Shown here: in pieces, positions 17,416 through 44,365 of the stretch
Layout of the letters: each line of letters opens with the position of its first letter
Numbering within the stretch: position 1 is the stretch's first letter
Virus record (IMG/VR): IMGVR_UViG_3300023049_000005
Span: 199,053 to 263,052 of that record
DNA: 64,000 nucleotides
Strand: one strand, 5' to 3'
Source of the DNA: a virus
Notes under the pieces: generated by a model
Told to the model about the DNA's origin: nothing
The model's input: the letters and a program-made list of their open reading frames with translations, nothing else
Databases searched by the model: none
Made by a program: the position numbers and the translations under genes

Positions 17416-19221
17416 TTAACCCATAGGTTTATTAAATTCTTGTACTTTTTTAATTATATCACGATCTTGTTCACTACCTTCACCTGTTAAATATGCTTCT
17501 AAGCTTGTATCAATTGTATATTTTTCTTCTGTGTATACTTCTCTTGGTAGCATTGTATAATAAATAGAATCGCCTTCTTTTCTACTTAACATTAACATCG
17601 TTAGATCTAAGTTAACAGGATTTAAATGATCTTCTATCATAATCATAGGAGTGTCTTGTTTAGGCATTAAGTATTCTTCCCCATCAACTTCTTTCTTATT
17701 CGCTAAGAAGAAAAAATAGAAATTATCTGATTCCTTTTTAAGTCTACTACTATCTTTTATTAATTGAGATAATAATAAAGATATAGTAATAGTATCCTCA
17801 CTATTTGCGGCTTCTATTAATCTATCCCACCTTTTCTTATCATCAATATACATTTGTCTTAATTTTTCTTTATCCGCTCTTGATGTTGCTATCTTAGTAT
17901 GAGAAACTAAAATAGTAGGATCTAAATCAATTAGTTTATAAAGTTCTTCATCAGTCAATTCTACACCATCATATAAACTGTGTTTATTAGTGATCATTTC
18001 TAATTTTTGAGTAGAAGTAAGTTTAAGTGTTGCTTCTTTATAATATTCCTCTATATTACTTTCTAGTAAATCAGGATAGTTTATGATAGCATATATCTTT
18101 TGATCCATGTTTAATGATTTAGCAACGGACTCGTGTTTACATACACGAACATCTGTCTTAATTAAATCAGTGATTTCTTCTGCCGTTAGGAAGTCTATAT
18201 TATCATATAGTCTAACTAATCTTGGGTATTTCATTAAGTACTTTTTCTTATCACCATCAGATAGATCGCTAAATAAATCTCCTGCGTATTCACTCATACT
18301 TTCATTATCGGCTAAATACTTTATCTTTTGATAATCTTCTATTTCATTCCATTTTTTTAGATATTTGAAGTATCCTTCTTTTTCAAGATTACTAGCACTA
18401 CTATCATCCTTATAATGTGCTATATATTTACCATCTTCGTACAAAGTAATACCAACTTGTGATTGTACGCCCTCTTTTGTTAGATCCCAAATAAAGTATT
18501 GTACCCCTGCCTTTCCACCACGAGTAAGATAACTACTCCAATAGTTATACATACTATCAGATATACACCATTGTTTAGACCCTAAGTTACATGAGCCTTC
18601 TTTTGAGAAAATCATAGCAATTAAATAATCATCTTCATCAAAGTATACTATTTGTGCATCTTGATCTTTTTTAATTTTCTCGAATATATCCTTTATATCT
18701 GCGAAACTTTTTAAGTGACCTGATAAGTAATTGAAAAAATCTTCAACAGGTCTATCCTGATACTTAGCAATCTTTTTTAAGAATACATTATTATAATCTT
18801 CGTAATCATAATCTATAATAGCATCTCTGAATCTGTTAAAGTGTTTTTTATTGGATTTCAATTTTTGTCTAAGCGGATTTGGTATCTTTTTTAAATATTT
18901 ATTTGTCTTTTCGATTAGATCTACTTCTGCTAATATATCAATAACATCTTCAAACTTCTCTGCTTCTGTTACATCTATATTAAACTGTTTGAACGTGTTT
19001 TTATGATCAGTCATTTTCTTATATAAATCCTTTAATTCATCGTGATTTATCCCTTCTTCAGAGTGTATATCAAAGAAAAGAGGAATGTATTTTTGTTCCT
19101 TTCTCAAATAATCAAACGCTTTGAGTATTTCTTGGTAAGGTATTTCCCTACCTTCCTTATCTTTATATTCTCTTTTACTTTCGAAAATAAATTGTTCTAA
19201 TGTTATTATCCACTTTGCCAT
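17416..19221 (-). CDS. WC-domain protein with capsid-targeting-like N-terminus, 601 aa
   Basis: The protein starts MAKWIITLEQFIFESKREY, a capsid-targeting-like peptide with I-F-E. A helical region of about 180 residues leads to a domain with LGSKQWCIS (213-221), QYFIWDL and QVGITLYEDGKYIAHYK. The same domain is found in the proteins at 31063 and 53509, at a similar distance from the N-terminus. From memory, related domains occur in large phages without known activity; the invariant W-C pair suggests a catalytic or metal-binding site. The C-terminal 330 residues are helical with repeat-like segments. Probably injected; role unknown. Confidence 0.65.
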   Translation of the reverse strand: MAKWIITLEQFIFESKREYKDKEGREIPYQEILKAFDYLRKEQKYIPLFFDIHSEEGINHDELKDLYKKMTDHKNTFKQFNIDVTEAEKFEDVIDILAEVDLIEKTNKYLKKIPNPLRQKLKSNKKHFNRFRDAIIDYDYEDYNNVFLKKIAKYQDRPVEDFFNYLSGHLKSFADIKDIFEKIKKDQDAQIVYFDEDDYLIAMIFSKEGSCNLGSKQWCISDSMYNYWSSYLTRGGKAGVQYFIWDLTKEGVQSQVGITLYEDGKYIAHYKDDSSASNLEKEGYFKYLKKWNEIEDYQKIKYLADNESMSEYAGDLFSDLSDGDKKKYLMKYPRLVRLYDNIDFLTAEEITDLIKTDVRVCKHESVAKSLNMDQKIYAIINYPDLLESNIEEYYKEATLKLTSTQKLEMITNKHSLYDGVELTDEELYKLIDLDPTILVSHTKIATSRADKEKLRQMYIDDKKRWDRLIEAANSEDTITISLLLSQLIKDSSRLKKESDNFYFFFLANKKEVDGEEYLMPKQDTPMIMIEDHLNPVNLDLTMLMLSRKEGDSIYYTMLPREVYTEEKYTIDTSLEAYLTGEGSEQDRDIIKKVQEFNKPMG

Positions 19222-25422: not shown

Positions 25423-26856
25423 ATGAAAAAGGAAGATAAGATACAAGAGTTAAAAAGGAAAATTTCTCAACTCGACCAAGAGATTGGATATTATGATGCA
25501 CTTCAACAAGGATTGAAGCTCGTACTTAACGGATCATATGGTGCTTATGCATCAAGTTACTTTGTCTTATTCGACAACAATGTTGCAGGCTCTATTACCG
25601 CTGAAGGTAGAGAGTTAACTAAAACTATGTCAGATAAAAATGAAGACTATTGGTATAACCAATGGCACTTAGATGAAGAACTACATAAAACCCTTTATAT
25701 AAAATATGTAGAACAAATTCCTAATACTAAACCCGTAAGTGTATATGGTGATACAGATTCAATTTTTGTTGGATTTGAACCTGCTATCGATAGCTGTGAA
25801 TGGAAAGACAGGATATTTAACGACACATGGTTGAACAAGTGTCCTTATCCTTATATAGTAATCAAGAAAGGAGATACATTTGACCATAATATAAAGAATG
25901 ATAATTACAAAGGTGTCATTTATTTCAGAGATGAAAAATTATATATGAACGGAGAAGAAATAGAATCTATACCTGAAATAAAACTATTAGCGATAGATGG
26001 TTCTTTAATTAAAGATTATAAGTTCATACCATATCTAAAAGAAGTTAAGAGTAAAACAATATACAATTGGGGAACTGAATTAGAATTCATGCACGGTTTA
26101 GATCATTTTAAAATAGCTGCTTATTTTAAAGATGAGTTAGACAAACATGCCCATAGTTATGGCGTAGATAACCTAGAAGATTTTGAGTTAGAAAAGATTT
26201 CTGAATCTATTATCAACTTAGAGAAAAAGAAATATATCCAACATATTACTTGGGAAGAAGGAATTAATTATGAAAGATTAAAATACTTCCAACCTAAGGG
26301 TGTTGAATTGATTAGATCATCTACTCCACAATTTGCGAGAGATGAAGATATGGGTATATACAAAGTAGTTAAATATTTATTTAACCATCCTAGGGATTTC
26401 AATATACAAGAACTTACTGAAATAGTAAGAGGAATGAGAACAGAATTTGAACTTGCAGATATAAATGATATTAGTGGACAATCTTCTTGTAGTAATTATG
26501 AGAAAAAAGTACTTAATGATAAGGACGCATTAGAGTTTGTATCAGGTGCGCATTTTGGTGTTAAGGCTGCAGCATTCCATAACTACTTATTGAACCAAAG
26601 AAAAGAATTACAGACTAGATATGAATTCTTGAAATCAGGCGATAAGATCAAGTATTATTATACTAAAGATCCGATTAATCCTATTTTTGGTTTTAAGAGA
26701 GGGGAATACCCAATTGAGTTTGGTCCTGATGTGGATTATGACACACAATTTGATAAAGTAATTCTAAGTCCTATTAATAATATTATTAAGAAACTTGGTA
26801 TGCCTGAAATTAATAAGAGGTTAAGTGTGTTAGTAGATATATTTGCTAATCTTTAG
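25423..26856 (+). CDS. family B DNA polymerase, C-terminal part of a split enzyme
   Basis: The 477-residue protein starts with a short charged helix and then polymerase motif B, LKLVLNGSYGAYAS (32-45), motif C YGDTDSIF (about 109-116) and a thumb domain. The end LSVLVDIFANL resembles the clamp-binding tail of T4-type polymerases. The exonuclease domain and motif A (DxxSLYP) are absent, and the upstream 1 kb does not encode them. Two genes must therefore supply one enzyme, as in some T4-like phages with split gp43. No intein or homing gene flanks it here. The N-terminal partner lies outside the window. Confidence 0.88.
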   Translation: MKKEDKIQELKRKISQLDQEIGYYDALQQGLKLVLNGSYGAYASSYFVLFDNNVAGSITAEGRELTKTMSDKNEDYWYNQWHLDEELHKTLYIKYVEQIPNTKPVSVYGDTDSIFVGFEPAIDSCEWKDRIFNDTWLNKCPYPYIVIKKGDTFDHNIKNDNYKGVIYFRDEKLYMNGEEIESIPEIKLLAIDGSLIKDYKFIPYLKEVKSKTIYNWGTELEFMHGLDHFKIAAYFKDELDKHAHSYGVDNLEDFELEKISESIINLEKKKYIQHITWEEGINYERLKYFQPKGVELIRSSTPQFARDEDMGIYKVVKYLFNHPRDFNIQELTEIVRGMRTEFELADINDISGQSSCSNYEKKVLNDKDALEFVSGAHFGVKAAAFHNYLLNQRKELQTRYEFLKSGDKIKYYYTKDPINPIFGFKRGEYPIEFGPDVDYDTQFDKVILSPINNIIKKLGMPEINKRLSVLVDIFANL

Positions 26857-31062: not shown

Positions 31063-33492
31063 ATGAAATTTATTTTACAGAAAGAAAATTTACAACAAGC
31101 AAGAAGTATATTAAAAAAATTAGATATCACAGAAGATGATGTTAGATTCAAAGACCTCAAAGAATATTACGAAGAAAGATTAGGTAATAATTGGGGGTAT
31201 TTTGGTTTCTTAACTAATCTTATTTTTAAACAAGGTGAGCATTTAAGTTCAGTTAAAAAGTTAATAGATTTCATTGTTGATGATAAAGATATCATAAAGA
31301 GTTTACCAAAAAACATAATTAAATATACTAGTATAGAAAAGATATCAGATGATATTACTATACAATTGGAATGGAGAAAATACAGACAAGAATTCGTCAA
31401 TGAACTTTCGGGTAAAATAAAAACACTAGCTAAAAAAGATGAAGATCTTAAAAACGAATACATTAATAGTGATGAAAATACTAAGAAAGATATTTTACAA
31501 AATTTCATTCCTAAAATAGCTAGATATACGGACTATAGAAAATTTAAATCAGATCTAAAATCATTTTTGAATAAAACAGATGATATCGAAACCATTATTA
31601 AAGATATTAAGAATCAAGAACACGCATATTTAGTATACAACGAAAATAATGTTGTTATAGCGGAAATATATAAATATGAAGCATCTTGTAAATTAGGATC
31701 TAAAGCATGGTGTATATCTACGGAAAAATTCCATTGGAATGATTATGTCAGTGGTATGAATAAACAATATTTTATTTGGAATTTAAATGTTCCTAAATCA
31801 AGTAATGAAAGTCAAGTAGGTGTTACAATAAAGGAAGATGGTACAGTAAGAACTGCTCATTATAAAAATGACAAAAGAGCATCTATTGAATTATATTTAA
31901 CTAAATATAATATACCCACCGAAGTACTTACTCCTATTGATATAAATAAAGATTTTAGTAAATTAGAAAAAGCAGACCGTTTAGATGAAGGCGTATTCAC
32001 TAATCTGATAAAAAGTGATAACAAAGAACTTATTAAAAAATATTACGATATTATACCAAATAGATTAAAGATTAAATATAATTTATATAATGAAGAAGAA
32101 TTAAGTAAAATGAATTTATCTGATACTACTAAAGAAGTACTTAGTTCGGATAACAGTAAGATTAAAAGAATAGTTAATTATCTAAGTCTTGAAGAAATTC
32201 TTAATTCTGAGGAAAGAAAATTCGTCGATAAGATGACATTCGTCGATAAAATATATTTTCTTAAAAAAGCGATGACACTTAATTTAGACTACGGTAGTGA
32301 TTTCCATGAATCTAATATAACAGAAAAGTTGTTTCCTAATACTGATGTATATACCATAGACTTTGATGAAGAATTAATTTATGTTAAAGGGGAGGAGAAA
32401 GATCAATTTTTTGATGAATTTCTTGGTATGTATACTGAGACATACCATCATTTAAATTCTATCACTACACATAGTAGTATGTATAGTGATACAGAGGAAA
32501 TTAATTTTTGTTATAATGCTCTAACGTCTGACCAAGGGTTAGAATTTATGGAAGTTTTAGAGTTCTTAGAAAAGAATTCATACCACGAAAAACTAAAAGA
32601 ATATTTCACAAAATTTATTAAGACGTATACTGATAATAATGGGATTGAATATTATGACGTTGAATCATTTTTCTTAAAAGTAGGTTTAAAAGAAGTGTTC
32701 GAAGTATTAGAATTATGTTCTAGTGCAATAGAAGAAGGCGCAGATCAATATATCTCAGAAGATATGCAATTATTTTCTGACCTAGAAAATAAGTTTGATT
32801 TTGATAGTTTTAATATCGGAATAGGTATTCCAATAGATTTAATTATTGATTCATTTGATGATAAGGAATTAACAGACGAAGGTTTTGATTATGATAATTG
32901 GGTTAATAACACTCCGTTATCTAATCAAGTTCCTGCATTTAATTCAGAAGAGGGAACTTATGAATATTATAGTATGGCTCAAGTATCAGAAGAATATAAA
33001 GAAAAAATTGATAATCAATTAGAAAAATTAACAAGTGATCTTGAATTTGAATTAGCTGAATTTTTAGAAATGAATAACGAAAAAGTACATAATGCTTTAA
33101 TTGACAATGGATATGTTGGTGATACAGAAAGTGGTTGGCAATATGAAGAATTCTTTTTTTATAGAAAAACCAAAGGTGATATAGTTAGTATCATACCAAT
33201 AGAAAGTATCATAGAAAACGGTAATGCCGTAATGTACATAATGGAAACTAAAGTTTTTAAGGAAGAATTACGCATTCTTAAAAATATAAATATAGTTACT
33301 GATGGTAGTGAGGAAAAACCAAATAGATGGGGGAGTAGTGAAAAAGAGCTTAATAGTAAAAACATCAATGTTAAACAGATTAACATCTTTGATCGCTTTG
33401 AAGAAAGAACTAAAGACCCTAACCAACTTAGTCTATTTGAAGAAAAGTTAATAATTAATTTCAAAAAGTTTAAACAAAGGAAGAGTATTTAA
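31063..33492 (+). CDS. WC-domain protein, 809 aa
   Basis: This is the second member of the WC family. Its N-terminus KENLQQARSILKK and the segment LPKNIIKYTSIEKISDDI (81-98) match the 1345-residue member at 53509. The WC domain has LGSKAWCIS (211-219), QYFIWNLNVP and SQVGVTIKEDG followed by an AHYK strand. The C-terminal 450 residues are acidic and helical, ending with the 'NQLSLFEE' stretch. The start is fixed by a promoter box 4 nt upstream. Family members are probably virion-associated; the activity is unknown. Confidence 0.65.
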   Translation: MKFILQKENLQQARSILKKLDITEDDVRFKDLKEYYEERLGNNWGYFGFLTNLIFKQGEHLSSVKKLIDFIVDDKDIIKSLPKNIIKYTSIEKISDDITIQLEWRKYRQEFVNELSGKIKTLAKKDEDLKNEYINSDENTKKDILQNFIPKIARYTDYRKFKSDLKSFLNKTDDIETIIKDIKNQEHAYLVYNENNVVIAEIYKYEASCKLGSKAWCISTEKFHWNDYVSGMNKQYFIWNLNVPKSSNESQVGVTIKEDGTVRTAHYKNDKRASIELYLTKYNIPTEVLTPIDINKDFSKLEKADRLDEGVFTNLIKSDNKELIKKYYDIIPNRLKIKYNLYNEEELSKMNLSDTTKEVLSSDNSKIKRIVNYLSLEEILNSEERKFVDKMTFVDKIYFLKKAMTLNLDYGSDFHESNITEKLFPNTDVYTIDFDEELIYVKGEEKDQFFDEFLGMYTETYHHLNSITTHSSMYSDTEEINFCYNALTSDQGLEFMEVLEFLEKNSYHEKLKEYFTKFIKTYTDNNGIEYYDVESFFLKVGLKEVFEVLELCSSAIEEGADQYISEDMQLFSDLENKFDFDSFNIGIGIPIDLIIDSFDDKELTDEGFDYDNWVNNTPLSNQVPAFNSEEGTYEYYSMAQVSEEYKEKIDNQLEKLTSDLEFELAEFLEMNNEKVHNALIDNGYVGDTESGWQYEEFFFYRKTKGDIVSIIPIESIIENGNAVMYIMETKVFKEELRILKNINIVTDGSEEKPNRWGSSEKELNSKNINVKQINIFDRFEERTKDPNQLSLFEEKLIINFKKFKQRKSI

Positions 33493-33520
33493 ATATATTA
33501 ACAAAAGATTTCTTCCCTTA

Positions 33521-34747
33521 ATGAAATTAGAGACCAAGGACAAAGACCTATTAAAAACATTCGAGAAATACAGTAAAAGAATTAAGAAAATCGATAAGCT
33601 TAAATTATGTACTTATCAGACCATACTTGATATAATAGGCGATAAAAGTAAAATAAAATATGGAGATATCTTTCTTAAAAAAGATTACCTCATTGATCTA
33701 GTTAATACTATTATTTATAAGACTTATGACAAAAAAGATAAAGTTGTTAGACTATCTTCTGTGTATTTAAGAAAAAAATATGGGAAACATTCGAGTAAAT
33801 ATACTAAATATTTAAAAGAAAAAAAGATAATAAATCATCCTAGTAATTATTTAGTAGGTAAACAATGTAATGGATATCAATTACATTTCTCTATTATAGA
33901 GAGCAAATCGGTTTTATATACTAGTTATGATAAAACACTAATCGAAAAAACAAAGAAACGAAAGATCCAAGAGTTCATAGAATCAGTTAATTATAATTAT
34001 ATATCAGATAAAGTAATAAGACACGTAATCGATAGTTTCGAACACGTTGAATTAGAATACAATGGTGCATTACATTATCTGAATGAAAATGTCAAAGGAA
34101 ATAAACTGACAAAAAACTTAGTACATCTTCATATGATAGATGAAAAATTAGGTTGGTTTTCAATAGACGAAAACCAAAGGTGTCACACTCCGTTTACTAC
34201 ATTAAAATCAGAAGTTAGGGATAGTTATTTAACAATAGAGGGGGAAGAAACCAAAGAGATAGATATTTCTAATAGTCAACCTTTCTTTTTAACTATATTA
34301 GTTAAGAAACATTTAAAGGAATTAAAATGGATAGATCGAGATGAGTATAGTATATTTAAAAATTTAGTTAAGTCGGGTAAATATTATCGATTTTTCGAAG
34401 AATATGCACATGGGGGAAATGTTAAGACAAAAACATTTAAAGTGTTCTTCGGTAAAAATGAATATAAGACTAAGGTTGAGAATAAATTTGAACAGACTTT
34501 CCCTACTATATACAAATTTATACTTTGGTATAAAGAAAAAGAAAAGAGATATCAAGCATTAGCTAAAGAACTACAAAGGAGTGAATCTAATTTCATATTT
34601 AACGATGTCTTAGAAGAAGTAGTTAATTCTTTCCCAAACATAAGGTTTTTCACAGTACATGATTCGATAGTAGTCAGAGAATCGAAATATGATGAGGTAA
34701 AGGAAATATTTGATAAACATATTGATAGAATTCACCAAAAATTGTAG
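33521..34747 (+). CDS. diverged single-subunit polymerase with family-A-like palm motifs
   Basis: The 408-residue protein has three motifs in family A order: motif A EIDISNSQPFF with Asp248, motif B VKTKTFKVFFG (301-311, K302, F306, G311), and motif C TVHDSIVV with His380-Asp381. The K-x3-F-x3-F/Y-G spacing is that of family A and T7-type enzymes, and H-D-S is the T7 RNA polymerase form of H-D-E. The N-terminal 200 residues include SSVYLRKKYGKHSSKYTKYLKEK, which looks like a winged helix. The fingers are short for a replicase. It may be a primase-like, repair or RNA polymerase. It ends in TAG. Confidence 0.5.
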   Translation: MKLETKDKDLLKTFEKYSKRIKKIDKLKLCTYQTILDIIGDKSKIKYGDIFLKKDYLIDLVNTIIYKTYDKKDKVVRLSSVYLRKKYGKHSSKYTKYLKEKKIINHPSNYLVGKQCNGYQLHFSIIESKSVLYTSYDKTLIEKTKKRKIQEFIESVNYNYISDKVIRHVIDSFEHVELEYNGALHYLNENVKGNKLTKNLVHLHMIDEKLGWFSIDENQRCHTPFTTLKSEVRDSYLTIEGEETKEIDISNSQPFFLTILVKKHLKELKWIDRDEYSIFKNLVKSGKYYRFFEEYAHGGNVKTKTFKVFFGKNEYKTKVENKFEQTFPTIYKFILWYKEKEKRYQALAKELQRSESNFIFNDVLEEVVNSFPNIRFFTVHDSIVVRESKYDEVKEIFDKHIDRIHQKL

Positions 34748-34792: not shown

Positions 34793-37700
34793 ATGAGTAA
34801 CAGTATTCAAGAAACATATAGTTCAGCACTAGTAAACTATTCAGAGCCTAGAACAATTAACGGTGTACATTACACGAGGTTTTACACAGAATTCAACACT
34901 GAATTGTCTGTAGGTGATTTCGTGTATATCTTAAATGGTAATTATGATAATACTGATTTACTTAACATCAACGAATATCAACAAGGAACAACGGGCTATG
35001 AAGTATTAGAGATCGATAGAAATTCGATAACTTTAGATATCTTATATAGAGATGAAGATCCGTGGAACGAAGACCCATTCGCTGATTATACTAAAGTATA
35101 TTTAGTTGATAATATCCAAAAATTTAATTATGAAAATATAGATAACTCGTTTGGTTTCGAAGGTCAAAGTGGGGATAAATACAGTATATTTAATAACAAT
35201 GTTTTCTTATCTCAAATAGAGGATATGGAATATACCCAAGAAACAGGAACTAACCAAAGATTTTTTAAGTCTTTCTTTGATCCCGAACGTACTTTAGGTA
35301 TGGTCGATATGAGAGGACAATTATTTAATGATTCCACGGAATTAAAATTCGATCTAGAAGAACTAACCGAATATAGTTTAGTTGAGCCTAACGGGGCATC
35401 AGGTAGTACATATGCTAGGTTTTCTAGTGGGCAGAATAATATAAGAGATTTTGATATAGTAACACAAGTTGATTATAGTACAGATGAAATAATAGAGAGA
35501 TTAATATCACTTAACTCATCTAATTCAGCTACTAATACAGTCAATTTATGGACACTTAATAAAAACACATTAGATGGTATAGGTGATGTTACACTAAGAA
35601 ATAGTTTAAATACAGAAGATGTGAGTGCTAATATAGTATCCCCTTTTATTAAAAAAGACGGATTGGGGGCATTTTCGGGTAGTCTTATTGATATTAGATT
35701 ACCGAAATATTCAGGTAGTACATATAATTATATAAGTTCTCAATCAGGGGGTGCTATATTAGGTAATACTTCAAGAACTTATACACTTAGAGATATAAAT
35801 CAAACAGTAATAGTGGGATATGATGATCCTACTTTTGAAAACAATTATAGAGCATTTGGTTTTTATAATTCTTCGGATCTATTGTCTGATAAATTTATAT
35901 CACCTGATTCACAGGATGATAGTTGGACAATTGCTAACGGTCAGGGATATATAGACGGTAATACACAGTCTACTCCATATTTTGCTTTGTCGTCAGGTTT
36001 AACAGGGTCTTATAATTATACAGGCGACTTTGTTTTCCCACAACGACAAATTGGAGGATTTAGGGTATATGGAAATATAGTACCACCATACGCAGAATAT
36101 AGTGGTATAGGTAGAGCAGTTCAAATAGAAACAAATACGTGGAATAATTCAGTAGAGGATTCTACACACCATGAGTTAGTTTTTGCGGGAACAGGACTTA
36201 CATCATCAGTCGATCCATTACAAGGAGGTGCTTATTTTTATTCATATGGAGGCGTTTGGCGTGATTATGATAGTATCTATAATGGTAATAAAATGTTAGG
36301 TAATGCGTTTGAGCTTTCTAAAACAACTTTTGATGAATATAAAACAGGGAGTTGGTCACAGTCTAGTTTTAACCCATTTGGTGATTTTGATGATTACCCG
36401 TTCGCAGATTTAAAAGATATTAAATTCTTAGGATACGAGAAGAAAGATTTTGGATTAAATATCTATTATGATAGTGCAGGTACACCTGTTAATACGTTTT
36501 CGGCTCTTACTTTTGCTTTACCTACTTTCGGTGGTATTGGTGGTGGTGAAACTTTTGCTTTACCATCGGAATTCGAATCTAATGGAGTATATTATTCTAG
36601 GTACTTAGTAATTACTGAAAGTGGTACTTCTTATATAATAAATTTATTATTTAACAGTGTTCTTTTAGCGGTAAATACTGATTTCTTAACTGATATGCAG
36701 AATGGATTACCACAAGTACATGTAGTAATACAAGAAATAGACACTGATCTTAGCCAACCAACAGAAATCGGAGTGCAAAGGAATTTAAACGTTTTTGATT
36801 TCCCTGAATTAATAGGGGGGGATTATCCAATTGTGTCTATATACGGAACACATTCTTATTATGATCCTATAAGCGGAACATTTTCGGGGTTTGACTTTAG
36901 TGATATTAATATAAGTACTATTGATTTTAGTGACCAAAGATGGCTAATAGGTAGCTCTGAACTAAGCCCAAGGTTAAGTAATTCTTCTCTTTTATCAACA
37001 GATGCAAACCAAGGTGTTTATGTTTTTGATAGATCAATAAATGATACTACTTATGAGTTTAGTATAACAACAACTACTGAATTTGATACAGGTGATACTT
37101 TACCTTCAAACAAAATATATAAAATATTAGGAGAGGTTATAAATAATAAGAGAAGAGTTTGGGTAGCTACGAACACAGGTCTATTTATGTTTGATTATGA
37201 TCTAGCATATACTTTTGATTATTATTTTAGAGTAAATTTTGATGATAATGAAATAGAACTAGATGAATCATTATATAAGAATGACAGACTTTATGTGATG
37301 GAAGAATTCACGTATGATGGAAGATTATTCGAAAAAGATAAAATATATCGTCATTTAAAAGACGAAAAAAGATGGGTAAGGGATACTACATACGAAAGAT
37401 CGTATTTAACTAAAGCTCACATGAAAGATGGTACTATATTAGAAGGTGTCTTCAATGATGGTATCTTCGGTAATAAAAACACTGTTGCAAATTGGGAAGG
37501 GGCTACTTGGAGAAATGGGATAGTTTATAATGTGGATTGGGATAGTGGTACAATGAGTTCTAAATCTGATATTATATTAAGACAAAATTATTATGCTACG
37601 TTAGATAATAGCAAAGTTAAGATAAGTACTGATTTTACTAACAATGAAGGATATGGTTATAATTTAGTTAATTTCTCTACACTTAAAACGGGTGATGTCT

Positions 37701-40700
37701 TAAATGGAACAATATTAAATACAACAATTGGGTTAACTGTAAGTAGTAGATTATTGGATGATACGTATAATGGATTATCGTTTAGTTATAACGATTTAGA
37801 AATTGTTAGATCTAAGATAGAAAATTCTACTACGAATGCGATACAACTTGGTAATTCTATGGTTAGTAGATCAGATCTAAATTCTACTTTTGTTAATGAT
37901 GCTCAATTGATTAATAATAATGTATATGATAGTATAATAAATGATGCAACAATAGAAAACCAAGGTAATATTAAGATATTAGGATACGAAAAATGGTTTA
38001 ATATCAGAACTAAAACGGAACAACAGGATATATTACAAATTCATAAATTCTTTATTAACGAAAAGGATTTTAGTAAGTTATCATATGAAGATTGGGTAGT
38101 TTTCAATAACGTGCAGTTAAGTAATAATAACCCGTCTAACATACTCGATAGACTGTTCTATGTCTTAGGTGGAGCTGATGGATATTACCAAGATGTATAT
38201 GAAGATTTAAATAGAATATTTAATAATAAGTATAGAGAGAATAATTTTAAGATATTTATTTCTAAACGATTAGAAACACAGAATAGACAAAGAACTAATA
38301 TTAGATATAATGGTGTTCAGTTAGTTGTAGATACTGCAGAGAACGAAAGTCCTATGTATTCTATTGATTTAAATATAGTAACTAATGAAATACCATATAA
38401 TTCTGATTCGAGTATTTATTTAAATGCTTTAGAAAATGATGGTATACTTAAAGTAAATGCTACTAATATAAGTAAAGCGGTTTTACAGAATTACCATTTT
38501 AAAAATAGTTGGATTAATGGTGGTACTTGGTTAAATGGTTCTATGATACAACCTGATCAGTTAAATAGTTTATATAATTATGGGTCAGTTTCTTCTACCA
38601 CTAATAGTGTTACAGTTGATTTATATGATAATAATTATGAGATAAAGTCTTCTGATATACTTGATAATGAAGTTGTACATATAAATAACATATGGGATAG
38701 TAATTTCTTAACGTATAGTGGTGGTGATTTTATGATCGTATCAGGAACAACATCAAGAGTTTTAGAACCGTATGGTGATTTCGCAACAAACGCAACACTA
38801 TCTGTTCCTATGAGTCAATATACTACACTTAATTTAAATAGAATTGACGGAGTAAATAATAATTTATCAATTGTAAGTGGTGTATTTAAGAACCAAAGTT
38901 TTTCTAATTTAAGTATACAAAACGAAGAATTAGATGTAAGAAATTTAAATTATCAGAATATTAGAAACTTAATGGTTATAAATTCTGAAATCACAAAGAG
39001 AGATAATTTAGAGATACAAGATATATTCTTAGGATATGGACATGTCTCAAATGACTTTACTAGCAAAGAAGAATTTGGTTTAGATCTTATATCATATAAA
39101 CAAACATTAACAAACGTAAATGTTTTTGATGGTATAGTTACTAAGTCTGCTTTCATATCAGGTACATTCTCTGATGGTATATTTACTAATAATCGTTACA
39201 GAGATATCAATGATTTGATTCCTATTAACAATAGAACCTATGCACCAACACAAAGTGCTGTGATATCTTCATGGCATTTCGGTAATTTCCTAAACGGGGA
39301 AGTTTCTGATTCAACTTGGTTGAATGGTACATTCTCTAATGGAATATTCTTAAATAGTGAATTCTTAGGTGGTATTTGGTCAAATGGTGAGTTTGGTGAT
39401 ATATCAGGTAGACCAACTCTTAACTTATTTAGAAAGGGGTTGTGGTTAAATGGTGCTTTTAATAATGGAATATTTGGCGATGATGATAAAGAAGTTGGTA
39501 CGATAAATAGTATTTATACTAATAATAAGTATATTTTAGAAAGTAATATTTATACTAAAGAAGGAACAAATATATGGGAGAAAGGTAATTTCAACAATGG
39601 TGTTTTAACTTCTATTAATAATAATGTAACAATATGGAGAGACGGTAAATTTAACAATGGTAAAGTAAGTGGGTCTGTTATTTGGTATGATGGTATATTT
39701 AATAACGGTAAATATAGTTCTAGATACGGTAGACAAGTAGCTAACGTAGCAGGTGAAGTGGATTTATTAAGTCTTGCGGATAGTTCATTAGCAGACGGAT
39801 CGAGAACATTAAACTTAAATGGTATAACAGCTTCTTTCCCCTTCTTAGATCAATATAGTATTGCTTCTATTAGAGATATCAATGCTAATAATCCAAACCT
39901 ATTTGATAACGCAGGAACGATTGTTCTTGATACTAGTGATAATCAATTAAAGTTCGGTTATGTTTCTTCTACTACAAGTAATACAGTGCTTGATCCATTT
40001 GATACTAACTTATCTTCACATGGTTTCACTGAAAAGGCTGCTGATGATTTCTTTACGGGTACTATATCAAATTTATATATGCAGTTCAAACCATTAGATT
40101 ACGAAGCAATTGGGACAAGTGTACACCCACTTAAAAATGCTAACATATTAGGTGCTAAGATATTCGTTCAAGATACTTCAAATGAATATATTTATGATGG
40201 ATCAAGTTATGTTACTCAATCTAATTTCTTATCTGCTACAATAAGTGGCACATCGTTAACATTCAGTAGTTATTATTCTTGGAGAAATGGTGTATTCAAT
40301 AACGGTGAATTTGGATTAGCGGATAATCCAAATAATATAAACCCATCATGGGAAAACGGTACTTTCAACGGTGGTGTTTTTAATGGTAAAGTTTGGAAAA
40401 ATGGAACATTCGTAAAGGGTAAATTTAATGGTTCGGGTACAAATCAGTTACAAACTAGTAGTACAAATATATTTAAGGGTTATGACCCACAAGCAAGTAT
40501 AGAAGAATATATCGATGATTATAGTCTATCTTTTATAGCAGCACAAAACCAAGGACAAGGATCATATAAAGTTATTTTAGATAAATATGATTGGTATGGT
40601 GTGTGGTTAAATGGTGAGGTTTCACCAAATATTAGTGGACTTAGTGTTGTTTTATCTAATTTAGAAAGCGCAGTATCTAACGTAACACCCAATTTAAGTT

Positions 40701-43700
40701 TTGGGTTAGAATCCGCATTTGCTCCTTCTGCTACTAACACATCTGTTTCCAATGCTCTTTCTAATAATTCAGGTTTATTGACAAACACATCAGTTCTTTC
40801 TAGTCCTGTTAGAGAAAATATACTTGTTGAATATTTCAACGAAGATAAATATAATAGAAGAATTAATAAAAGACCCATATTCGATAAAATGATATGGGTA
40901 AACGGTATATTTAATAACGCAGACGGAGAATTTAATGAAAGTGTTTGGCTTAGTGGTACTATGAAAAACGGTACATTTAGAAATTCTATGTTCAACCCAT
41001 ATGTACAAAGATGGGATTTCGAAACAGGTGATTTAAATAATATAGAATTTAAATTTGACTTAGATACTGAGAACACTATATGGGAGAACGGAACATTTGA
41101 TAGTGGTATATTCTTTTTCTCTGATTGGGAGAACGGAACATTCGAAAATGGTGTAATGATGGGTGGTAACTTTAAGGCAGGTAGAGCTAATTATATGTCT
41201 GCATATTCTTCTATTTGGGAAGGTGGTAGATTTAGAAATGGTAATTGGTTCGGGTCTAACTTTACGTTTGATAATATTTACAACGATCCATCTATACCCA
41301 ATCCTTTTGAGTACTTACGTAATTATTTTGCTAATGTTCAATTTGCTCCTTTCGTAACAGATATTTTAGGTAATAATAGTAAGAGATTACAGGATGATAG
41401 ATTACATATATGGAATATAATAGAAGGTGATATTACTAATAGTGTTTATAATATAACAGGTCATAGTTTTGGTACTGATAGTGGATCACAAATAATCAAT
41501 AACGGAACAGTAGATGTGAATAACACATACAGCTTTACTGATATATCAACTAGCCCCGCATCGGGTATATATAGATTGGAATTAAGTATATCACAAACAC
41601 CAATTGTTTTCTCTACATATGACTATATTGTGAATTTCACATTAGTTGACCAAAAGAGATATGATGAAGGGGTGTACGAAATTACTTTTTATACCGATGG
41701 TAATATTTGGAGTCCTATTCCAATAGTAAACAGCACGGTGTTTGAATTATATGCTGATATATACGAAAACGGTATATTAATCGAACCTGATGTATTACTA
41801 AAACAAATCCCAATAGGTAGTTATAAGAATGTTAGGAAAACCTTTGAGGTATTAGAAAATCAAGAATATGTACTTAAAATAGAAGCCCGAATGAGTGTAG
41901 ATAATGGTACTTACACGGAGAGTTATTACTTAGCAATAGAAGAAGTAGTGGCTGAGGTTGTTTACTCAAATAAAAATAATGATCTAGAAGGGTCAATAGA
42001 ATTAAATTGGGAAGGTTCATACTTAAATTCTACTGCTTCGACTGCTAGTGCTTCATTAACTTATACAAATACATTAAGTTTAGAAGATACTATTCGTTAT
42101 ACAGGTTTAGATGTATCTACTATAAGTATACCTACTGTATATAAAGATTATTCAAGTGCGTATTCTCAATTTGGAAACGGTACTTTCCAATCAGGTATAT
42201 TTGAAAACGGAATATGGAACAACGGATATAGGGGAACAGAATACGGTCTTTATATAATAGAAGACGGTGATGTTTATCCTGGGGCGACATTAAGTTATGT
42301 TCATTTGGGTGGTTCTTCGTCTATAGTAGAAACTAATCCATTATATAGCGATGTCCCTCAAGTTAAATATAGAACAGAACCAATTGTGTATTTTAACAGA
42401 GTACAAAGAAGCTTTAAAGTAGGAAGAAGAAGATGGAGATTCGTTTTAGAAAGTGCTTTTGATATTGATGCTGCTAATAATACAGAAGAATATAATAGAT
42501 TAAGAGTAAGTGATCAAGTGTCTATTTCTAATATAATAGCAATAGATATTAATGGTAATAGAAAATTAATTAAAGATGTATTTAGAATAATTAGAATACC
42601 AAGTAGAACTAGAATAGTAGTAGAGTATCAAGAAACTTTCCCTATCGATAGTATCCAAATAGATAGCGATAGACACTTAATTGCGGTTAGTAAAAACGTA
42701 TGGTTTAATGGTGCTTTCTTAAATGGGTATTTTAAAGGTAATATGATAAACGGATTTGTTAGAGGAAATAGAAATATCACCAAGATAGAAGACTCTCAAT
42801 TAATAGACGTTGACTTCCAAGGTGGGCATTTTGTGAGTAAGAAATACACACTTAGTAGTATATTCGATACAAGAACATCCAATTCGTTAAGTTTATCTCC
42901 ACAATTCACAGAGAAATATAATAGCTTATATCATAGTGGATTAATACAAAATATGACATTCGATGATGATGTTACTTTAACCAATTATGGGTTATATTCC
43001 ACAGAAGGAGTAAAAATAAACGGAAATGGGATTGGTGATCCTAAGAATGTAACTTTTGGTGCTACGGCAGTTTCGGAAGCACTTCAATATATCTATAATA
43101 GTGACATGGATCTAGTGTATGAACCTGAATATTATAGTAGTGTATTTAACCAAAATATTATCAATACACATGCTATAAACGAATTGGAAATTGGTGAGTT
43201 CATCCCCACTAAACTATATAACATACCTGCGGGTTATATTACTTATGATGTATTAAATAGTGTATCTAATTTTAAATATTCGACTGAGCCAAATAACATT
43301 GAGGGGGTAATAGAATATAAATTAAGTTTAGGATCTAAATATAAAATATTTAATGATTTATTTAATGTTGATTTTTCACAAAGTCCAAATAATGATCCTG
43401 ATATAGATGCACCATCTACTTTTAATATAGTGGAATCAGCAACATATGGTATATTCAGACAAGGATCTATATCTAATGGTATCAATTTTAACCAACTAGA
43501 ATCACAATTTATACACGAAGACTTTATGTATATATTTGATACTAGTAGTAATGTTACAGAAAAAATAACAGGGAACAATACGTTTAAACTTAGAAATAGA
43601 TATCACTTAGTAGAAGTAGATGTAGAATTTACTAATAAAACAGTACCCAATCCTTATGTTATAACTAATACCGTTACTATAGGCACTACATATAGTTATG

Positions 43701-44365
43701 GTACATTCTCACTACCTAAATTAAGTATAGGGCAAGCCTATAACGAATATTTTGAAAATATTAATTTAGGTGGAACAAGTGGTTATATATCATCTTATGA
43801 TAATGATATGGTCGGATTTATTGATGGGACAAAATTAAGTGAGATAAATAATTTTGGAAATATTGGTGATACTAAACGATTAACCATGAAGTCATTTATG
43901 TATAATAACTTTGGTGGGTATAGAGATTCAGTGAGAGTTATAGAAAAGGGCTTTAATGTTGATATAGGTTCAACCAGTAGCGAATATACAGTTAATTCTC
44001 CAATTTATTATAAATTTAATCATTATGAGATAGATAAAATTCCTTTTTATGATTATAGAAGTTATATTGATCCATTAAGTGGTGAGGTAACAGATTGGAA
44101 TATGTTAGCAAACCAAGATCAAACTAGAAAAATAGATGATAGGATTAAAACACCTTTCTATGCTTCTTCTGTTCCTATTAATTATCAAGACTCTAATTTT
44201 GTATTAACTGATAATATAAATTTCTTAGGTGGTTCTAATATAACAGGTAATGTGATTATTGAAGAAGTAGATACATTATCAACAGCTACTATACAAGAAT
44301 TATTAGATTTACTTGCTGCTAATAAACAATTTAATTTTGGTGGTGGTGGTCCTCAATCATTATAA
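34793..44365 (+). CDS. giant structural protein, 3190 aa, with WxNGxFxNGxF repeats
   Basis: This single gene fills 15% of the window. The first 850 residues are Ser/Thr/Gly/Asp-rich beta structure. From about residue 876 to 2660, clusters of MORN-like repeats of the form W-x-N-G-x-F-x-N-G-x-F recur, for example DSTWLNGTFSNGIF (near 1502), SWENGTFNGGVF (near 1853) and TIWENGTFDSGIF (near 2096). Other stretches between clusters carry conserved Tyr/Asn-rich folds. There is no signal peptide or membrane span. It ends in QFNFGGGGPQSL. I infer a long tail or baseplate structural protein, possibly a tail fibre or decoration spanning the particle. A strong terminator follows. Confidence 0.6.
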   Translation: MSNSIQETYSSALVNYSEPRTINGVHYTRFYTEFNTELSVGDFVYILNGNYDNTDLLNINEYQQGTTGYEVLEIDRNSITLDILYRDEDPWNEDPFADYTKVYLVDNIQKFNYENIDNSFGFEGQSGDKYSIFNNNVFLSQIEDMEYTQETGTNQRFFKSFFDPERTLGMVDMRGQLFNDSTELKFDLEELTEYSLVEPNGASGSTYARFSSGQNNIRDFDIVTQVDYSTDEIIERLISLNSSNSATNTVNLWTLNKNTLDGIGDVTLRNSLNTEDVSANIVSPFIKKDGLGAFSGSLIDIRLPKYSGSTYNYISSQSGGAILGNTSRTYTLRDINQTVIVGYDDPTFENNYRAFGFYNSSDLLSDKFISPDSQDDSWTIANGQGYIDGNTQSTPYFALSSGLTGSYNYTGDFVFPQRQIGGFRVYGNIVPPYAEYSGIGRAVQIETNTWNNSVEDSTHHELVFAGTGLTSSVDPLQGGAYFYSYGGVWRDYDSIYNGNKMLGNAFELSKTTFDEYKTGSWSQSSFNPFGDFDDYPFADLKDIKFLGYEKKDFGLNIYYDSAGTPVNTFSALTFALPTFGGIGGGETFALPSEFESNGVYYSRYLVITESGTSYIINLLFNSVLLAVNTDFLTDMQNGLPQVHVVIQEIDTDLSQPTEIGVQRNLNVFDFPELIGGDYPIVSIYGTHSYYDPISGTFSGFDFSDINISTIDFSDQRWLIGSSELSPRLSNSSLLSTDANQGVYVFDRSINDTTYEFSITTTTEFDTGDTLPSNKIYKILGEVINNKRRVWVATNTGLFMFDYDLAYTFDYYFRVNFDDNEIELDESLYKNDRLYVMEEFTYDGRLFEKDKIYRHLKDEKRWVRDTTYERSYLTKAHMKDGTILEGVFNDGIFGNKNTVANWEGATWRNGIVYNVDWDSGTMSSKSDIILRQNYYATLDNSKVKISTDFTNNEGYGYNLVNFSTLKTGDVLNGTILNTTIGLTVSSRLLDDTYNGLSFSYNDLEIVRSKIENSTTNAIQLGNSMVSRSDLNSTFVNDAQLINNNVYDSIINDATIENQGNIKILGYEKWFNIRTKTEQQDILQIHKFFINEKDFSKLSYEDWVVFNNVQLSNNNPSNILDRLFYVLGGADGYYQDVYEDLNRIFNNKYRENNFKIFISKRLETQNRQRTNIRYNGVQLVVDTAENESPMYSIDLNIVTNEIPYNSDSSIYLNALENDGILKVNATNISKAVLQNYHFKNSWINGGTWLNGSMIQPDQLNSLYNYGSVSSTTNSVTVDLYDNNYEIKSSDILDNEVVHINNIWDSNFLTYSGGDFMIVSGTTSRVLEPYGDFATNATLSVPMSQYTTLNLNRIDGVNNNLSIVSGVFKNQSFSNLSIQNEELDVRNLNYQNIRNLMVINSEITKRDNLEIQDIFLGYGHVSNDFTSKEEFGLDLISYKQTLTNVNVFDGIVTKSAFISGTFSDGIFTNNRYRDINDLIPINNRTYAPTQSAVISSWHFGNFLNGEVSDSTWLNGTFSNGIFLNSEFLGGIWSNGEFGDISGRPTLNLFRKGLWLNGAFNNGIFGDDDKEVGTINSIYTNNKYILESNIYTKEGTNIWEKGNFNNGVLTSINNNVTIWRDGKFNNGKVSGSVIWYDGIFNNGKYSSRYGRQVANVAGEVDLLSLADSSLADGSRTLNLNGITASFPFLDQYSIASIRDINANNPNLFDNAGTIVLDTSDNQLKFGYVSSTTSNTVLDPFDTNLSSHGFTEKAADDFFTGTISNLYMQFKPLDYEAIGTSVHPLKNANILGAKIFVQDTSNEYIYDGSSYVTQSNFLSATISGTSLTFSSYYSWRNGVFNNGEFGLADNPNNINPSWENGTFNGGVFNGKVWKNGTFVKGKFNGSGTNQLQTSSTNIFKGYDPQASIEEYIDDYSLSFIAAQNQGQGSYKVILDKYDWYGVWLNGEVSPNISGLSVVLSNLESAVSNVTPNLSFGLESAFAPSATNTSVSNALSNNSGLLTNTSVLSSPVRENILVEYFNEDKYNRRINKRPIFDKMIWVNGIFNNADGEFNESVWLSGTMKNGTFRNSMFNPYVQRWDFETGDLNNIEFKFDLDTENTIWENGTFDSGIFFFSDWENGTFENGVMMGGNFKAGRANYMSAYSSIWEGGRFRNGNWFGSNFTFDNIYNDPSIPNPFEYLRNYFANVQFAPFVTDILGNNSKRLQDDRLHIWNIIEGDITNSVYNITGHSFGTDSGSQIINNGTVDVNNTYSFTDISTSPASGIYRLELSISQTPIVFSTYDYIVNFTLVDQKRYDEGVYEITFYTDGNIWSPIPIVNSTVFELYADIYENGILIEPDVLLKQIPIGSYKNVRKTFEVLENQEYVLKIEARMSVDNGTYTESYYLAIEEVVAEVVYSNKNNDLEGSIELNWEGSYLNSTASTASASLTYTNTLSLEDTIRYTGLDVSTISIPTVYKDYSSAYSQFGNGTFQSGIFENGIWNNGYRGTEYGLYIIEDGDVYPGATLSYVHLGGSSSIVETNPLYSDVPQVKYRTEPIVYFNRVQRSFKVGRRRWRFVLESAFDIDAANNTEEYNRLRVSDQVSISNIIAIDINGNRKLIKDVFRIIRIPSRTRIVVEYQETFPIDSIQIDSDRHLIAVSKNVWFNGAFLNGYFKGNMINGFVRGNRNITKIEDSQLIDVDFQGGHFVSKKYTLSSIFDTRTSNSLSLSPQFTEKYNSLYHSGLIQNMTFDDDVTLTNYGLYSTEGVKINGNGIGDPKNVTFGATAVSEALQYIYNSDMDLVYEPEYYSSVFNQNIINTHAINELEIGEFIPTKLYNIPAGYITYDVLNSVSNFKYSTEPNNIEGVIEYKLSLGSKYKIFNDLFNVDFSQSPNNDPDIDAPSTFNIVESATYGIFRQGSISNGINFNQLESQFIHEDFMYIFDTSSNVTEKITGNNTFKLRNRYHLVEVDVEFTNKTVPNPYVITNTVTIGTTYSYGTFSLPKLSIGQAYNEYFENINLGGTSGYISSYDNDMVGFIDGTKLSEINNFGNIGDTKRLTMKSFMYNNFGGYRDSVRVIEKGFNVDIGSTSSEYTVNSPIYYKFNHYEIDKIPFYDYRSYIDPLSGEVTDWNMLANQDQTRKIDDRIKTPFYASSVPINYQDSNFVLTDNINFLGGSNITGNVIIEEVDTLSTATIQELLDLLAANKQFNFGGGGPQSL

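Follow-up and report, generated by a model that had tools for sequence, protein, structure and literature searches.

The TV-Pols are standalone polymerase cores of 400-600 aa with thumb helices, a hairpin Arg, two palm Asp and an RxxxK motif (Iyer et al. 2008, PMC2579912). They are known from Bacteroidetes, Planctomycetes, Verrucomicrobia and other groups, where integrases or resolvases lie nearby, and a primase-polymerase role has been predicted for them (PMC2579912). One enzyme classed as a TV-Pol, CCPol of SCCmec, makes DNA primers de novo together with MP (PMC7581432). For the barbavirus proteins named divPolA2, repair or RNA synthesis has been proposed, and their N-terminal domain has been reported to resemble nothing known (Yutin et al. 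2024, PMC11348598). Here we describe a compact viral polymerase gene whose closest described groups are divPolA2 (PHROG 4756) and, by context and architecture, the TV-Pols.

The polymerase gene, its motifs and its fold

The gene lies in a stretch of 64,000 nucleotides, positions 199,053-263,052 of a 270,756-base virus record, which is called the window below. The product, P0001, is divided as follows (window coordinates).

33521..34747, +: compact family A-type polymerase ORF, P0001, 408 aa (from the ORF, the alignment and the model)
33590..33934, +: N-terminal winged-helix domain, residues 24-138 (separate model and fold search)
33932..34141, +: helical thumb-like region, residues 138-207, with helices 138-157, 163-175, 180-190 and 193-207 (secondary structure of the model; thumb role suggested by position)
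34166..34198, +: template hairpin, residues 216-226 (D216..R220-x-H222-T..T226), R220 being invariant in 84/84 rows
34256..34282, +: motif A, residues 246-254 (E-I-D248-I-S-N-S-Q253-P), from the alignment
34412..34453, +: motif B, residues 298-311 (G298..K302...F306...F310-G311), the usual R/K298 being absent from the window copy
34574..34588, +: conserved Q352-x-x-E355-S356 helix before motif C, putatively equivalent, from its order, to 'QGTAAD' of polymerase I
34652..34669, +: motif C, residues 378-383 (T-V-H380-D381-S382-I), from the alignment

The ORF is intact, begins with ATG and has many stops in its antisense frame. A first-pass annotation had read motif A (D248), motif B (K302-x3-F306-x3-F310-G311) and motif C (H380-D381-S382) into the protein, and all three are found at these residues. 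In an alignment of 84 relatives (51 viral, the window copy counted, and 33 bacterial) eleven positions are invariant, namely R220, D248, N251, S252, Q253, P254, G286, Y289, K302, E355 and D381. H380 and S382 are nearly invariant, with S382 kept in 79/84 rows and HDS in all viral rows. The ordered string D..K-x3-[FY]-x3-[FY]G..HD[SECG], with like spacings, arose in 5 of 20,000 shuffles of P0001; conservation is far stronger evidence than this shuffle test and, judged from the alignment, the motif set is real beyond doubt. D248 and D381 lie 133 residues apart.

In family A enzymes the pair Glu710-Tyr766 excludes ribonucleotides. The position of the steric-gate Glu710 of polymerase I is taken by Q253 in P0001 and by Gln in all 84 rows, and that of Tyr766 (F310 in P0001) is Phe in all phage rows and Phe or Tyr in the bacterial rows. 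Since the pair is replaced by Q253-F310, sugar selectivity is likely to be different.

The AlphaFold2 model of P0001 (mean pLDDT 92.1, pTM 0.87) has the palm, fingers and thumb of a polymerase I-type enzyme, and its best solved fold matches are all family A DNA polymerases (VIA Z 11-13.2 over about 227-265 residues, the alignments covering residues 6-408). These include the apicoplast polymerase (Z 13.2, rmsd 3.4, 237 residues), Bst polymerase I (12.9), T7 DNA polymerase (12.6), Pol theta (12.5) and Klenow (12.5), differences in Z below 1 being ties. Foldseek against the PDB also placed the apicoplast DNA polymerase first (E 6.9e-4), with the same kind of enzyme heading the ranking; mitochondrial RNA polymerases appear from rank 15 on, and T7 RNA polymerase also falls below the polymerase I-type folds. 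Among viral models the best match was a 403-aa protein named 'Putative DNA polymerase I', from an uncultured marine phage (34% identity, E 1.8e-35); ~430-aa proteins of Aeromonas and Rheinheimera phages came next, at a distance. There is no exonuclease domain in the 408 aa. The model and the family A fold matches support the earlier assignment to the family A/T7 superfamily, and we regard both the fold and membership of the family A superfamily as almost certain. A winged-helix-like region had also been noticed ahead of the motifs. Modelled alone, residues 24-138 (pLDDT 81, best Z 8.4) match mainly winged-helix proteins (TFIIE, RPC62, Fur/Zur and plasmid Rep initiators), so that the model bears the region out as a winged helix at fold level, which implies no function.

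The H-D-S of motif C had been read as more like single-subunit RNA polymerases than DNA polymerase I. As a sign of kinship this is not supported, as the best solved folds are polymerase I-type and as HDS alone is not diagnostic of an RNA polymerase, barbavirus divPolA2 having it too. Moreover, comparison with the family A profile stays collinear between motifs B and C (E 0.0023 in hhalign with a broad PolA alignment), whereas the T7 RNA polymerase profile aligns over 21 columns only, near motif C; these profile scores are weak and serve for coverage, not as proof. The P0001 family thus stands closer to the DNA polymerases of family A than to RNA polymerases of the T7 type. HDS and the D-x-x-G-R of most relatives are nevertheless common to it and the single-subunit RNA polymerases, so that it may make RNA; divPolA2 has these motifs in part as well, which makes them undiagnostic. 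The two metal Asp, the motif-B Lys and the fold are kept and the gate Glu and motif C Glu are gone, which places it in the family A superfamily and apart from classical polymerase I.

Relatives, host phages and gene neighbourhood

Searched alone, P0001 had no useful match in Pfam, NCBIfam or PDB sequences and none at all to a Pfam family. DNA_pol_A is absent from the Pfam families listed for the 84 relatives, and neither Pfam nor NCBIfam holds a model for the family. As a query against an annotated-phage collection, P0001 yielded just six records, each an unannotated genome of a huge phage (595-735 kb); a profile built from these six recovered 154 IMG/VR loci and 36 bacterial-genome loci. The bacterial loci are mostly from Bacteroidota, with some from Ignavibacteriota, Planctomycetota and Verrucomicrobiota. 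Within Bacteroidota, matches are sporadic (16 of 395 sampled genomes, about 4%), and this patchy occurrence is the pattern expected of mobile elements. At ten bacterial loci a suspected recombinase neighbour was confirmed with Pfam as a tyrosine integrase or serine resolvase (10/10); the ten were picked by eye and, being selected, give no frequency. No link to an integrase, resolvase or transposase was seen at the phage loci, and a plasmid search gave no P0001-family match. A reading as a defence gene was dropped, PADLOC having given no convincing match.

A survey of huge phages placed genomes of >634 kb among the Mahaphages, with predicted infection of Bacteroidetes (PMC7162821), and we infer that the phage records carrying the P0001 family are Mahaphage-type phages of Bacteroidota. 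Maximum-likelihood analysis gathers 55 phage rows into a single supported group (100/99), which includes P0001 and leaves out the LR756511 copy. The P0001-family gene of LR756511 (L006) forms a 7962-9125/9122-10408 pair, with a 4-base overlap, with a second small PolA. This second gene is more ordinary (Pfam DNA_pol_A 1e-19, motif C HDG), and two compact family A polymerases lie side by side.

A family B DNA polymerase (PolB) is present in 13 of the 14 genomes or records that carry the P0001 family, with PolIII alpha instead in LR756511. P0001 had been thought too small for a replicative polymerase, which these counts support; with PolB in most of these phages, it is an accessory and not the replicative enzyme. 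A PolA recognisable by Pfam was found in 1/14 only, LR756511, where it is the different small gene next door. No multi-subunit RNA polymerase was recognisable in the 14, and a sigma-70 factor passed the model's cut-off in 11/14, the window's own record included; together these suggest that phage promoters are most simply read by host RNA polymerase carrying phage sigma factors. A PF00940 search of the phages gave no match, but the controls were equally silent, so that this carries no weight. In the window, the PolB ORF at 25423-26856 (+) matches the C-terminal half only (PHROG 262 positions 488-840 of 856). Two PolB parts match separate distant ORFs in related huge phages, e.g. about 100 kb apart in LR745206, and the window PolB is probably a split polymerase gene.

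At the other phage loci two families recur beside the polymerase gene. A ~443-aa family (L053:6325-7734; 58-78% identical to the first member) is near it in 40 of 56 non-redundant loci, nearly always just upstream, and a 179-aa family (L002:9330-9866) lies downstream in 40 of 56. Both are candidate partners, and neither is present in the window. Identification of either as a ligase or SSB was set aside, with no convincing Pfam, PHROG or PDB match. Nor was a helicase or SSB partner recognised adjoining P0001 in the window, which counts against the primase-polymerase role favoured below. Directly behind the polymerase gene, an ORF at 34793-44365 (+) encodes 3,190 aa in which repeats of the type W-x-N-G-x-F-x-N-G are numerous; the product is probably a structural protein or a fibre. 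The large proteins encoded at 31063-33492 (+) and 17416-19221 (-) share G-S-K-x-W-C-I-S and similar surroundings and are apparent paralogues; the former has no Pfam match.

An AT-rich motif recurs between genes of the window.

33488..33500, +: TTTAAATATATTA, near variant of TTTAATATATA, 20 nt before the P0001 start codon, a possible promoter
6639, 11759, 29209, 34764, 58091, 61309, +: examples of TTTAATATATA, exact matches
6594, 19256, 27701, 29214, 51081, 57569, -: examples of TTTAATATATA, exact matches

The window holds 16 exact copies of TTTAATATATA, 14 of them in 2,638 intergenic bases and mostly 4-34 nt before a same-sense gene; there is no exact copy before the P0001 gene. The commonest intergenic decamer in 80 related phage loci is TTAATATATA (194 of 272 copies). 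The motif is promoter-like, is found across the clade and recalls the late promoters of T4. The first-pass annotation had linked such decamers speculatively to the polymerase. The motif is real and the link is without support, since sigma-70 factors account for the promoters.

Possible roles of the family and of the window copy

The computations show fold, conservation, distribution, the absence of an exonuclease domain and the presence of PolB; activity, sugar choice, priming and host are inferred. The N-terminal winged helix would dock the enzyme on DNA or on a partner, with a short helical thumb and minimal fingers holding template and nucleotide. R220 would contact the template strand and K302 the triphosphate, and D248 and D381 would hold two metal ions for nucleotidyl transfer. 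With Q253 and F310 at the gate, the choice of sugar is probably less strict or is determined in another way. The job would be to make or extend short primers, or to fill gaps, beside the phage PolB.

Our first choice of role is a TV-Pol-like primase-polymerase, with gap-filling repair second and transcription a distant third. We give an even chance to the general statement, that this is an accessory polymerase of the family A superfamily, copying DNA templates, lacking an exonuclease and of the TV-Pol/divPolA2 kind, likely making or extending primers or filling gaps beside PolB. An accessory primase-polymerase of TV-Pol kind is just as finely balanced. The earlier suggestion of a compact RNA polymerase, a primer-making enzyme or a repair enzyme thus survives in part: primer-making or repair stands as the best guess, and RNA polymerase kinship is not supported.

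The alternative that fares best is an accessory repair or gap-filling DNA polymerase that depends on primers, uses dNTPs and has no priming ability. Its appeal is that the fold is closest to DNA polymerases, that no exonuclease is present, that PolB is already there for replication and that repair was one option named by the discoverers of divPolA2 (PMC11348598). However, the integrase/resolvase context of the bacterial relatives fits replication of an element better, and Q253-F310 stands in place of the E710-Y766 steric gate; we consider pure repair possible, if on the unlikely side.

A compact single-subunit RNA polymerase transcribing phage genes, perhaps from AT-rich decamer promoters, is improbable. 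The structure and the collinear profile match favour DNA polymerase I, and the resemblance to T7 and mitochondrial enzymes lies in HDS and in the DxxGR of relatives, motif A not being of T7 type. Two members weakly match Pfam RNA_pol (0.0011), two match the RNA polymerase PHROG 2051 (best 7e-4) and N4 RNAP2 is a weak profile match (E 1.2), but the bacterial relatives lie in small mobile elements. That TTAATATATA is so common in the phage relatives could also speak for such an enzyme, against which stand the sigma-70 factors of 11/14 phages.

The window copy departs from its relatives. Nearly all phage relatives have R/KxxxK in motif B, where it has G298xxxK302, and a template hairpin of D-x-Y-G-R220 (DxxGR in 50/51 viral rows), where it has D-E-N-Q-R (N218-Q219). 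It alone among the 51 viral rows has G298, Q219 and N218, and its branch (1.42 against a median of 0.3) is the longest in its phage clade. The missing motif-B Arg, the altered DxYGR and the long branch make this copy possibly impaired, a further point against the primase-polymerase, and suggest a shifted or weakened enzyme. A decaying or repurposed gene, in which fold and metal ligands were kept and normal polymerase activity was lost, is nevertheless doubtful given an intact reading frame and the retention of both catalytic Asp, K302, Q352, E355 and H380; with metal ligands and K302 kept, we do not call the copy dead. An active polymerase is predicted with high confidence for the family at large, and is probable for the window copy too.

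It is similarly improbable that the family arose from polymerase I, separately from the T7 lineage, as an RNA polymerase or RNA primase complete in 400 aa. In such an enzyme Q253-F310 would accept ribonucleotides, and the winged helix would recognise DNA of promoters or origins in the largest phages known. The polymerase nonetheless recurs in many Mahaphage-type phages and is common to mobile elements of their presumed hosts, all without a Pfam or NCBIfam model. The invariant gate replacement poses the question of whether a half-size polymerase I derivative can prime or transcribe alone. If it can, primases would have arisen independently once more, in addition to DnaG, the archaeo-eukaryotic primases and CCPol-MP.

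Comparison with described polymerases

With polymerase I/Klenow, the apicoplast DNA polymerase and Pol theta the P0001 family shares the thumb-palm-fingers fold, the motif order A-B-C and R..K...F/Y...F/Y. However, P0001 is half their size, lacks exonuclease domains and has 133 residues between the Asp of motifs A and C, against 177; the HDE of classical polymerase I is HDS and its steric-gate Glu is absent. Single-subunit RNA polymerases (T7, N4 RNAPII, mitochondrial) resemble the family in the DxxGR of most phage relatives and in an HDS/HDC motif C. They differ in that their motif A, DGSCSGIQ (DGxxxGxQ(H)), is absent and is DIxNSQP in the P0001 family, in profile similarity confined to the surroundings of motif C, and in lower fold matches. 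CCPol and the PolA-SSB pairs (PMC7581432, PMC10061031) are likewise family A polymerases of mobile elements without exonuclease activity, and experiments have shown CCPol, with its partner, to be a primase-polymerase. CCPol keeps Glu174/Phe225 (= E710/F762; PMC7581432), whereas the gate of P0001 is Gln253, which again counts against our preferred role, and for P0001 no SSB partner of the kind found in PolA-SSB pairs was identified.

By profile, the P0001 family is homologous to divPolA2 (hhalign E 8.6e-6). PHROG 4756 is matched by 7/84 members (best 3e-7), P0001 by itself not being among them. Barba26A gp034 belongs to PHROG 4756 (3e-64) and is picked by the P0001-family profile from a six-frame scan of the Barba26A genome (6e-5); its size, fold match and PHROG suggest that gp034 is the divPolA2 of that phage. 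The divPolA2 reported in MG592441 (PMC11348598) was not found by the profile, another point against the explanation preferred here. Proteins of both groups measure about 400-440 aa, accompany another DNA polymerase as accessory enzymes and have no exonuclease, with an HDS motif C in a polymerase palm and an unusual N-terminal domain. They differ in motif A (DYSQLWP in divPolA2, DIxNSQP here), in a palm identity of only ~23% and in the N-terminus, which is without known similarity there and a modelled winged helix here. For divPolA1 of Flavobacterium phages, no significant similarity by profile was seen in the candidate tested, immuto_3-5A gene 1.

Among the sources of named TV-Pols (Sputnik V13, Ma-LMM01), the Ma-LMM01 genome gave the family profile nothing at E <= 1, where its sensitivity was perhaps too low. 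P0001 has no fused D5 helicase, and no link to one was seen in neighbouring ORFs, read by eye. The phage branch of the family also differs from TV-Pols in sitting in huge phages alongside PolB. The P0001 family nevertheless has the thumb helices, hairpin Arg, two palm Asp and RxxxK of TV-Pols, the window copy lacking that Arg, and its bacterial relatives share with them both host phyla and an integrase/resolvase context. It is therefore likely that the P0001 family belongs to the TV-Pols.
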